From positions 1 to 64,000 of the forward strand of contig NZ_MTAW01000132.1 in NCBI RefSeq assembly GCF_002154725.1: a DNA stretch of 64,000 nucleotides, read 5' to 3'. Positions 51,148-54,145 of this stretch are shown in pieces (positions within the stretch are counted from its first letter, which is position 1; every line of letters starts with the position of its first letter). This stretch comes from Nostoc sp. 106C. GTDB lineage: Bacteria; Cyanobacteriota; Cyanobacteriia; Cyanobacteriales; Nostocaceae. The notes under the pieces are model-generated. The model was not told the origin of the DNA and ran no database searches. It saw only the letters and a program-made list of their open reading frames with translations. Both the position numbers and the translations under genes were made by a program.

Positions 51148-51202
51148 TTATTTAAATTGAGTTGCGATCGCATCTTTGACTTCATTATAAAACTAACGCT
51201 AA

Positions 51203-53737
51203 CTAAATTTGAATCGGCACAAATTTATATTCATTATCAAGTATTTGTTGAACTTGGACTGGAAAAAGGCGGTTATTGGTGCGATCACGCGACGAATCAA
51301 ATTGAATCTTTCCCGTTGCAGCATCTACTGAAAAATTTGGATTAGACAGTGTCTTTTGTAACTCTTCACGTGTATTACTTTTTTGCAATCCTGCAATAAT
51401 TGCCTTAGTTGCATCATAAGATGTTGCTGTTCGCCAGTTCACCGGAGCTTTCGACCACAATACATCAGCATTTTTCACAAAAGGATTATTAGGAAACGCT
51501 GCCGGATGCCAAGGTACAGGTATGATGATTCCATTGATGTATTTACCCTGCTGTAAGCTTTCTTCGGTGAGCAATGCAGGCGTACCAAATAAAGCTAATT
51601 GCCCTTGATTAGCTTGTATTAGGGCTAGACCTTGCCTTTCGGTATCCCTACTTTTGTCTATGTATGTAGTTAATACTAAAGCATTAGCGCCACTATTCTT
51701 AGCTTGAGAAATAGCTACACTAGGGTCAAATTTAGAAGCAGAAATATTGCAATCTGTAGTATTGATAATACCACCAGCCGCTTTTATTGCTTTGACCAAA
51801 CTATCCTTAACCGAAAGATTATCTGAATGTTGATCGACACAGATAAGAAAGTTAGTTTTTTTCATGTTATTGATAGCGTAACGAGAGATGCTATCTGCGA
51901 CTAAGCTAACACTAGGAGCTGTACGAAAGATATAAGTGCCAATACTAGTAATATTTTGGGCATAACTAGTAGGAGACATCATAACTAAGCCACCGTTTTG
52001 ATACACTGGGGCTGCGGAGATGGAAGCACTACTAGCATTATGTCCCACTACAGCAAAAATACTAGCATCTTTGACAAACTGAGTAGCAAGCTGTACAGCT
52101 TCGCTAGGAGCATTATCATCATTAGCGATCGCTACCTCCAAAAGCTTCCCATTAATACCGCCATTTCGATTCACTTCATCTTGAGCCTGAGCCACACCGC
52201 GTAGCATCTCTTCTGCTATATTCTTTTGAGTGCCAATGGGTACGCTAACGGCAATTTTGAGTTGTTCTCCTTTTTGACGAGCTATCGCATTGTTCAAGTA
52301 AATTAATGTTTCTGGGTCTCTTGAATTAGTTTTCCGGTAGGAATCAAACTTATTAATAGCAGTATTACAATCACTGTTAGCAAATGCTTTAACTCCAGCT
52401 TCTTTATCAGCATTTGTATATTGTTTTAATAAAATTTCTTCACCTAAGCTAATTCTATCGCCCAAATTATACTCTTTTTTGACACAGGAATATCCTTGAG
52501 CCTGAACTGGAGTTTGAGGTTGATCTGGAGACTTTAAAAAGTAGACTATAGTACCACCAATAATTACTCCTATTACTCCAATGATGCACGCTCCTATGTA
52601 ATATGAAAAATTGCTATTTTGGGGAGGTGGAGGATTAATAACTACCGGAGGTGCAGTAAGTTGCTGTTCGGTAATTAAAGAAGCTTCAATTAGGGCTATA
52701 TCTTCATCTCTGAGTCCTAAAACTTGCTGAACACGTTTCAAACGAGCGCGAGTTCTATCACTCGCAGGAAACCCATCTTTAATCTCGTCGCGGAAAGCTA
52801 GCTCATATTGCTGCAATTTTTTCTTTTTGTCTTCTATAGGTGCTAAAACCTGAGTTTCAATTGCAGCAGCCTGTTCAGGTGTTAGTTTCAGTGTCTCTTG
52901 TAAACCTACCAATGCAGCGCGACCAGCAACAGAAATTTCACCGTTACCTCCCTCTACCCAATACTCAACTTCTCGACGATATGTGAGCATGGGATCATTA
53001 CTTGGTGCTTTAGCAAGCTTAATTTTATAACCTTCTTTGATAGCGTATATCTCCGGTTTCATAGCCGGAGTGCTTTCTTGCACTTTCTTGGTAGCATACT
53101 CATGCAATTCATCAACAGAGATAAAAGCATCTTCATCACGATCTGCCGCACCAGTTTCTAGCCCCTCCACTATGTAGCGGGTGTAAGTTGAGTTATCTGT
53201 TCCTTGCTGTTCAAAAGAATATTGGGTTGAAGTCGAAGATGTGAGAACAGCCCGTCCTTCGCCACCCAATTGGTTTTTGACATCCACAAAACCATCATCT
53301 CTTGCCAACATCCCCTCAGCAAACGCACCACTAAAGCAACAATCGAGAATTACTACCTCGCGTTTGGAGCGACTATTGCTCATGACTTCATGCACAAAGC
53401 TAGCTAGTACTGTTGTTGCCTTAATCGGTACTCCTTTATCTGTTTTGCGAGTATTGCGAGTAGCAAAGTAAAGTTTGCCGCTTTCATCTTTGATTCCGTG
53501 ACCAGAGAAAAATAGCAGAACCAGGTCATCTCTTTGACGATCAGCAAACAAGATTTCAATAGCTTCCGCCATCTCATTTTGTTGAGGATTCAGCAGTACT
53601 TTTACATCATCAAAACCGCCAATCTCTGGATTCTCTAAAACTTGCTGCATTTTCTCAACATCTTTAGTTGCCGCAGGCAATGGGGTAATACCAGTCTCAT
53701 ACTCACTGACTCCTATTAGCAGTGCTACTTTCGCCAT
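51203..53737 (-). CDS. Metacaspase fused to a membrane helix and a periplasmic type 1 binding-protein receptor
   Basis: The 844-residue protein has four parts. Residues 1-230 are a C14 caspase domain with His80 (LLFFSGHGI) and Cys134 (LDCCFSGAF), the complete dyad. Residues 245-360 are helical (YRREVEYWVEGGNGEISVAG, then LGLRDEDIALIEASL), a segment often fused to cyanobacterial conflict proteins. Residues 380-410 form a single membrane helix (IGACIIGVIGVIIGG). Residues 420-844 resemble the Leu/Ile/Val-binding-protein receptor family (LKIAVSVPIGTQKN, GGINGKLLEVAIANDDN, FAVVGHNASSASISAAPVYQ). The caspase should face the cytosol and the receptor the periplasm. An EACC1-like gene lies 30 bp upstream in the same operon. 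Confidence 0.85.
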   Translation of the reverse strand: MAKVALLIGVSEYETGITPLPAATKDVEKMQQVLENPEIGGFDDVKVLLNPQQNEMAEAIEILFADRQRDDLVLLFFSGHGIKDESGKLYFATRNTRKTDKGVPIKATTVLASFVHEVMSNSRSKREVVILDCCFSGAFAEGMLARDDGFVDVKNQLGGEGRAVLTSSTSTQYSFEQQGTDNSTYTRYIVEGLETGAADRDEDAFISVDELHEYATKKVQESTPAMKPEIYAIKEGYKIKLAKAPSNDPMLTYRREVEYWVEGGNGEISVAGRAALVGLQETLKLTPEQAAAIETQVLAPIEDKKKKLQQYELAFRDEIKDGFPASDRTRARLKRVQQVLGLRDEDIALIEASLITEQQLTAPPVVINPPPPQNSNFSYYIGACIIGVIGVIIGGTIVYFLKSPDQPQTPVQAQGYSCVKKEYNLGDRISLGEEILLKQYTNADKEAGVKAFANSDCNTAINKFDSYRKTNSRDPETLIYLNNAIARQKGEQLKIAVSVPIGTQKNIAEEMLRGVAQAQDEVNRNGGINGKLLEVAIANDDNAPSEAVQLATQFVKDASIFAVVGHNASSASISAAPVYQNGGLVMMSPTSYAQNITSIGTYIFRTAPSVSLVADSISRYAINNMKKTNFLICVDQHSDNLSVKDSLVKAIKAAGGIINTTDCNISASKFDPSVAISQAKNSGANALVLTTYIDKSRDTERQGLALIQANQGQLALFGTPALLTEESLQQGKYINGIIIPVPWHPAAFPNNPFVKNADVLWSKAPVNWRTATSYDATKAIIAGLQKSNTREELQKTLSNPNFSVDAATGKIQFDSSRDRTNNRLFPVQVQQILDNEYKFVPIQI

Positions 53738-53767
53738 CTCATTATTCTTCCTTGTTAATGGAATTTC

Positions 53768-54145
53768 CTATTTACCTGCGACGAACTTTTGAGCTTGTTC
53801 AATGATTGCGGTTAACTCTTGCTGGCTATTGGCTTTTACTTTTAGCTTTTTCCCGTTAGCTTCTACTTCCAATTCAATTGGTTTATTACCCAAGCGATCG
53901 CGCAAAAACTCCAACATTTTCTTAAAATTGGCAAGGCTTACCTCTGTTCGCAGCACTCCTACCAGAAAACCTCCAACAGACTTTGCTCCTTCGGGTGTGT
54001 CTGTCACTGCTACGAGTTCTGCACTTTCTACATCTAAGTCTTTTATCTCTCTCAGGAAATTTCGCGTTTCTCGCTCCTGCTCTTCTGCATCTAAGTCGGG
54101 ATTGGAAAGAGCGATCGTCAGTTTGACGTTAGATTCAGAACTCAT
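53768..54145 (-). CDS. EACC1-like effector-associated protein
   Basis: The 125-residue protein has VKLTIALSNPDLDAEEQERE at the start, a middle GAKSVGGFLVGVLRTEVSL and the end IELEVEANGKKLKVKANSQQ. This pattern resembles the effector-associated constant component EACC1 that accompanies caspase- and trypsin-type effectors in predicted bacterial conflict systems. A good AGGA site precedes the ATG. The metacaspase gene starts 30 bp downstream on the same strand. The EACC1 name rests on pattern memory, not on an alignment. Confidence 0.7.
   Translation of the reverse strand: MSSESNVKLTIALSNPDLDAEEQERETRNFLREIKDLDVESAELVAVTDTPEGAKSVGGFLVGVLRTEVSLANFKKMLEFLRDRLGNKPIELEVEANGKKLKVKANSQQELTAIIEQAQKFVAGK

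Follow-up and report, generated by a model that had tools for sequence, protein, structure and literature searches.

Caspase-receptor proteins in print and the gene pair of Nostoc sp. 106C

Bacterial caspases joined to ligand-binding domains outside the membrane have been described several times, and a gene pair of Nostoc sp. 106C, on the reverse strand at positions 51,203 to 54,145 of the 64,000-nucleotide stretch analyzed here (the window; contig NZ_MTAW01000132.1, positions 1 to 64,000), encodes a protein of this kind behind an EACC1-like gene. The published work is represented here by titles, abstract openings and passages of the open-licence literature. An ANF-receptor metacaspase of N. 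punctiforme PCC 73102 was listed in 2010 (Jiang et al., PMC2853523); like the 106C protein it combines a caspase with an extracellular ligand-binding domain, annotated as a branched-chain amino acid periplasmic component, a likeness by description, and the passages of that paper mention neither an EACC1 partner nor receptor exchange. The domain pair was reported in 2012 in a single sequence that, by sentence order, comes from Cyanothece sp. PCC 7424 (Asplund-Samuelsson, PMC3501461), and in 2021 Peripla_BP_6 was found in eight orthocaspases, all true HC forms, and PBP-like_2 in one (Bhattacharjee et al., PMC8283722). These cyanobacterial orthocaspases show the same domain pair as 106C, and the count also includes a PBP-like_2 case; the passages of the 2021 paper treat the domains as accessory, do not compare a single site across species and do not mention EACC1.

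The gene order was described by Kaur et al. in 2020 (PMC7159879) as an EACC1 gene followed by a caspase with a variable C terminus, a transmembrane (TM) segment with a periplasmic binding protein (PBP) domain being among its forms, and such EACC1-caspase pairs, prevalent in actinobacteria, were predicted to be conflict systems. The 106C pair resembles this system in gene order and in the variable caspase C terminus, TM and PBP included, but the actinobacterial EACC1 has a conserved membrane helix, whereas that of 106C looks soluble and belongs to a cyanobacterial host; Kaur et al. read the variable C-terminal part as an effector. A model of membrane orthocaspases, also from 2020, has a ligand on ANF or CHASE2 trigger autocatalysis, with experiments still required (Bhattacharjee and Mishra, PMC7475262). 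It shares with our reading the idea that an outside ligand starts caspase activity; it is a proposal, and its passages mention no receptor exchange and no CHAT or kinase counterparts. The original prediction, made from the sequence of the window, had presented the caspase-receptor fusion as striking and the locus as a bacterial death receptor. Neither idea is new, the design having been in print between 2010 and 2021 in the first four of these papers and ligand-triggered autocatalysis having been drawn in the fifth. What appears to be new, as far as searched, is the apparent exchange of receptors on a constant caspase, a receptor stock common to CHAT proteins and kinases, and an EACC1 variant without a membrane helix: among the papers listed, the titles, abstract openings and passages describe no CHAT-PBP fusions and no receptor exchange in these caspases.

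By its sequence, the 106C locus is an EACC1-type pair whose caspase is linked to a class I solute-binding domain by helices and then a single membrane-spanning helix. Both open reading frames (ORFs) were found where they had been predicted, the EACC1-like gene lying 5' and separated by 30 nucleotides from the caspase gene by the ORF calls. Peptidase_C14 and Peripla_BP_6 occur in one 844-residue chain, far above cut-off, confirming the predicted architecture, and the caspase half reaches 180.7 bits with the NCBIfam model "caspase, EACC1-associated type" (NF047832), whose cut-off is 140. The His/Cys dyad is intact, as foreseen, with H80 and C134 present in 47/47 distinct caspases compared (106C included), and is the dyad expected of a true (HC) orthocaspase. 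Between the two halves there is a single hydrophobic stretch (residues 383–401), which agrees with the one membrane helix proposed and falls within a low-confidence stretch of the predicted model (residues 360–426; mean pLDDT of the whole model 77.7). An error of assembly is ruled out: the fusion is real because the same caspase-TM-PBP frame recurs across many genomes of the order, in at least 17 of 388, its own included, three of these frames being partial (G344, G368, G257). This count is a lower bound, as two candidates were scored per genome.

EACC1 homology of the 125-residue protein, also part of the original prediction, failed in a direct profile search and held in a comparison of profiles. 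The Pfam EACC1 profile (PF19953) matched nothing in the 106C genome up to E 10, the 125-residue protein included, and gave weak matches to 5 of 20 cyanobacterial small proteins (best E 0.0079). With hhalign, five actinobacterial EACC1 proteins, each encoded just before a caspase gene or joined to a caspase and all matching PF19953 at E 0.0075 or better (two of the five above its cut-off), gave 98.2% at E 5.6e-14 over 108 columns, and a single Trypco1 sequence serving as control gave 0.4%. The homology therefore stands. The conserved membrane helix of published EACC1 was not seen in the 125-residue protein by hydropathy, alignment or model. Maximum mean hydropathy over 19 residues is 1.08 in 106C, 0.56–1.58 in the 20 cyanobacterial proteins and 1.39–2.16 in the five actinobacterial ones, ranges that overlap slightly; at the place of the helix, the cyanobacterial protein is six residues shorter in the alignment, and its model, of moderate confidence (mean pLDDT 76.4), has a strand at residues 60–70 and a helix at 71–85. 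The chain of the pair that crosses the membrane is the caspase chain, by its single hydrophobic stretch. A fold search with the EACC1-like model returned nothing at E ≤ 0.001, and a likeness to TRADD-N was set aside (E 0.08, TM-scores below 0.3).

A profile made from 20 such small proteins located an EACC1-like gene immediately 5' of the caspase gene in 39 of the 46 cases with room for one. The seven others are L006, L046, L047, L053, L105, L107 and L109; in L105 and L107 the EACC1-like gene instead follows the caspase gene, about 350 nucleotides downstream. In Nonomuraea (L103:2102-4471), EACC1 and caspase are fused into one 789-residue protein.

Apparent receptor exchange at a common site and the receptor module

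The nearest relative compared, Nostoc sp. T09 (L033 and L115, which encode the same protein), has the site and the neighboring genes in common with 106C. The flanking DNA is 87–100% identical per 200-base step, against 61–77% over positions 51,201–52,200. Protein identity between the two strains is 96% for the EACC1-like protein, 94% for the helical segment, 83% for the caspase and 58% for the receptor; the corresponding synonymous divergence (dS) is 0.17, 0.09, 0.55 and 0.82, and 0.07–0.28 for three flanking genes. Along the chain, 60-residue stretches starting at residues 241–331 are 83–97% identical and those starting at residues 541–691 are 45–52% identical. The trees conflict: 106C and T09 are sisters in the caspase tree (96/93), whereas their sisterhood is rejected for the receptor by the approximately unbiased test (p-AU 0.0027). 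The 106C receptor is placed beside the L036 receptor (99/98); the caspase data reject this grouping with p 2e-48, in a test set up after the trees had been inspected.

Changes of tail are seen more widely. The caspases of L042 and L043 are 75% identical to that of 106C over the N-terminal 350–380 residues and end in a TM segment and PBP_like_2 (PstS-type) domain; they are nested at two places within the PBP-bearing caspase clade, and a single origin of their tail is weakly rejected (p-AU 0.033). The receptors of L153 and L040 belong to another branch of the PBP tree, and their caspases fall on the 106C side (L040 as a long branch). On the trees, the PBP tail requires at least six changes among 47 caspases, five of them forced by well-supported branches, and the caspase partner requires five among 126 modules, four of them forced. 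Caspase matches below 200 bits or 215 residues, PBP stretches below 330 residues and identical copies had been dropped before these counts, and the samples were drawn by similarity to 106C, so that PBP-bearing caspases are over-represented. The PBP tree holds 33 of the 126 modules, with L056 excluded as a long branch, and the caspase tree 30 of the 47 caspases; the distant caspase-PBP clade (L054, L056, L078-L082) forms one row of the PBP tree because PBP was matched in two pieces in its other members. These comparisons favor exchange of the receptor by recombination as the simplest account. Plain fast divergence of the receptor is disfavored by the conflicting trees and the high dS, although the value for the caspase half is raised as well.

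The receptor is of the Leu/Ile/Val-binding protein (LIVBP) type by both fold and family profile (Peripla_BP_6). The predicted model shows a mostly confident binding-protein fold at residues 492–841, nearest in Foldseek to Leu/Ile/Val-binding proteins (best E 1.5e-21, PDB ID: 1z15; TM-score on target 0.85 for Leu-bound 4q6b), with metabotropic glutamate receptors as more distant matches. The amino acid pocket of LIVBP is formed by Ser79, Thr102, Tyr202 and Glu226, with Glu226 binding the amine. In the alignment Ser79 and Tyr202 are kept (S569 and Y692), and Thr102 and Glu226 are changed (Y592 and A721). The Glu226 column is acidic in 7 of 126 distinct modules, or in 12 when a neighboring position is allowed; of the pocket-loop residues, S569 is conserved in 122 of the 126, and P589 and S591 in 123 each. 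Among the 20 receptors borne by caspases, an acid at or beside the Glu226 position occurs in L040 and L153, which belong to the other branch, and in none of the remaining 18, as if exchange had altered the pocket. The receptor had been predicted to be like amino-acid-binding proteins, and the fold agrees with this while the replaced glutamate does not. Binding of a ligand by the domain is likely, though this may or may not be an ordinary amino acid, and receptor branches may differ in ligand.

The same outer half is found on other proteins. A TM-PBP profile yielded 469 loci, of which 80 were kept, a set that overlaps with the caspase-PBP genome set and in part consists of the same loci. The matched module shares a frame with a caspase at 13/80 loci (L110 and L123 incomplete), with split frames at two more, and with CHAT at 18/80 (in L168 the preceding frame holds part of CHAT), with one more split; it is fused to a kinase at 1/80 (L068/L150) and to an AAA_35 protein at 1/80, and stands alone at 44/80. 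Each class was assigned by likeness to one or two reference sequences. Pfam annotation covered ten proteins, namely eight fusions with at least one PBP_6, seven of them non-caspase, and two PBP_like_2 caspases. The CHAT-TM-PBP proteins (L062-L065, L067, L069 and others) have the TM-TPR-PBP half in common with the 106C caspase but carry CHAT in place of Peptidase_C14, and often have two tandem PBP units. At 6/80 loci a Ser/Thr kinase gene ends no more than 1.6 kb upstream on the same strand, five times with a PstS-type gene in the row; Pfam confirms the PstS-type gene in all five cases and the kinase in three of the six. The occurrence of the module on CHAT, kinase and AAA proteins, and its apparent exchange on a constant protease, support the view that the outer half acts like a sensor module.

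Proposed ligand-gated proteolysis and its alternatives

We think it probable that the 106C protein is a membrane-anchored receptor-protease with an exchangeable sensor, in which a ligand gates proteolysis in the cytosol. The binding domain would close in the periplasm on a small molecule from outside, and closure would alter how the chains pack, by way of the TPR-like part and the membrane helix. The caspase domains would then be brought together, or freed from the EACC1-like partner, and cytosolic proteolysis would start, with the four other EACC1-caspase pairs of the genome perhaps as substrates and with cell death or a milder proteolytic response, at a guess, as the outcome. As the caspase base would be kept and the receptor exchanged by recombination, specificity could change without rebuilding the protease. 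Of the interpretation first offered for this locus, the tethering of a caspase to a binding-protein domain and the pairing with an EACC1 homologue survive; the novelty of the fusion does not. More tentatively, and somewhat short of an even chance, the locus may represent a class of modular receptor-proteases, with a constant cytosolic EACC1-caspase (or CHAT) base on which periplasmic receptors of unrelated folds, LIV-type or PstS-type, are swapped by recombination, a re-aimable counterpart of the death receptors of animals.

Several points weigh against ligand gating through an exchanged receptor. Topology, gating and outcome are inferred, and the charges beside the membrane helix (no Lys or Arg in the 15 residues before it, one in those after) do not alone fix the topology. 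The full model has a pTM of 0.53, and its membrane region is of low confidence. The pocket may bind another ligand, or none, because 106C lacks the acid that binds the amine in LIVBP. With the dS of the caspase raised too, the gene is by its divergence a wider mosaic and not a constant protein in which the receptor alone was replaced, and three of the seven caspase genes without an EACC1-like gene directly upstream carry PBP.

A quieter function, regulation by nutrient status without killing, is possible if rather doubtful: the receptor would report a solute and the caspase would trim a small number of regulatory substrates, so that the protein would be to proteolysis what receptor kinases are to phosphorylation. 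The fusion of the module to a Ser/Thr kinase, its position beside kinase genes and its presence on CHAT proteins fit such a role, and PstS-type domains suggest sensing of phosphate or another oxyanion. The apparent receptor exchange, however, is not needed for plain nutrient sensing, and EACC1-caspase pairs are predicted to be conflict systems (PMC7159879). The conflict setting would suit a different role for the outside domain, as an antigen or bait for phages, toxins or rivals and not a sensor of small molecules, with exchange reflecting an arms race. The divergence between 106C and T09, concentrated in the receptor core of one site, and the loss of the canonical amine site agree with this, and hypervariable domains have been proposed as antigen sensors in other conflict systems (PMC10907252). 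We nonetheless consider a bait unlikely: nonsynonymous divergence of the receptor (dN) is well below dS (0.299 versus 0.82), and the three pocket-loop residues are kept as ligand binding predicts.

The reading of Kaur et al., with the C-terminal domain as an effector released by self-cleavage of the caspase, draws on the constant caspase and variable C terminus in print for EACC1 systems, TM-PBP included (PMC7159879), and on the tails within the 106C genome (GUN4, FGE, TM-only and PBP). For this protein it is improbable, as a domain beyond the membrane cannot act as a cytosolic effector and the linker at residues 353–382 of 106C lacks the Lys or Arg that cleavage after a basic residue would require, where the 14 relatives compared have 1 to 8; self-release by linker cleavage looks unlikely in 106C. 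Lysis of Microcystis by sugar alcohols was rejected as support for ligand-triggered caspase death, the passages of that paper reporting no caspase induction (PMC9039742).

At stake is whether bacterial caspases obey signals from outside the cell. A constant protease with exchanged receptors amounts to a set of natural chimeras, in which simple experiments could tell ligand and output apart. Fusions of the same kind to CHAT, kinase and AAA proteins suggest a common stock of cyanobacterial membrane receptors that may drive proteolysis or phosphorylation.

Feature coordinates, genomic copies and minor observations

Table 1. Coordinates within the window of the EACC1-like gene, the caspase-receptor gene and the parts of its product
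Feature	Coordinates	Strand	Basis
EACC1-like gene, 125 aa, first of pair	53768..54145	(-)	ORF list; predicted alpha+beta, without membrane helix
Caspase-helical-TM-TPR-PBP protein, 844 aa	51203..53737	(-)	ORF list, domain profiles, predicted model
Caspase domain Peptidase_C14, aa 3-230	53048..53731	(-)	Profile E 8.9e-23; NF047832 180.7 bits
Catalytic His80 codon	53498..53500	(-)	His in 47/47 caspases, including 106C
Catalytic Cys134 codon	53336..53338	(-)	Cys in 47/47 caspases, including 106C
EF-hand-like loop, aa 199-210, D-x-D-x-D-x-x-I-x-x-x-E	53108..53143	(-)	Conservation, model
Helical segment, aa 249-359, five predicted helices	52661..52993	(-)	Predicted model; recurrence elsewhere
Membrane helix, aa 383-401	52535..52591	(-)	Mean Kyte-Doolittle hydropathy 2.47
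TPR-like helices, aa 443-489, after membrane helix and before receptor	52271..52411	(-)	Model
Peripla_BP_6 receptor domain, aa 494-830	51248..52258	(-)	Profile E 1e-31; Foldseek
Receptor core, aa 541-720, where divergence from Nostoc sp. T09 is greatest	51578..52117	(-)	Sliding identity, dS 1.01

The EF-hand-like loop within the caspase domain suggests calcium control: D199 and E210 are present in 47/47 caspases, D203 in 46/47 and D201 in 42/47, and the loop is part of a helix-loop-helix in the predicted model. Sub-threshold EF-hand matches were also seen in one actinobacterial relative and in L043. The helical segment, proposed at the outset to link the caspase to the rest of a conflict network, does occur elsewhere, recurring after a Ser/Thr kinase domain on contig C9 of the same genome and as six matched units in L085. 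For the TPR-like part, Pfam gave weak, sub-threshold TPR matches in three relatives.

The 106C genome contains five EACC1-caspase pairs, whose tails (PBP, TM-only, FGE-sulfatase and GUN4 twice) show the variable C-terminal domain of EACC1-caspase systems; the EACC1 copy on contig C27 contains an inner stop. Another close caspase, the sixth, lies on C103; its tail is an EAL domain, and it has no match for the helical segment or EACC1. A kinase gene on C152 has a separate TM-PBP gene behind it, which shares 41% identity with the one in the window. A TM-PBP remnant with a 111-residue open frame (L008, C169:16713-17024) lies between an amino-acid-kinase-family gene, presumably argB-like, and a shikimate kinase gene, and L055 is an intact stand-alone TM-PBP copy between genes like those around L008.

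Among the relatives of the module, L138, L146, L156, L162 and L169 each have a Ser/Thr kinase gene and a PstS-type gene in a row, on a single strand, with one or two TM-PBP genes of the LIV type. Two tandem PBP domains, from different branches of the PBP tree, occur in the CHAT proteins of L064, L065, L136, L140, L144, L145, L148, L152 and L154, and further in those of L157, L161, L171 and L177; L136 and L161 are apparently the same loci as L064 and L065. In the Nostoc sp. Lobaria cyanobiont, plasmid pNLP1, typed as conjugative, carries a 9174-base "caspase family protein" gene that ends in the same binding-protein domain (L100). On a plasmid of Gloeothece verrucosa (L101), a separate gene for a binding protein overlaps a caspase gene, and a Trypco1 gene lies just upstream on the opposite strand.

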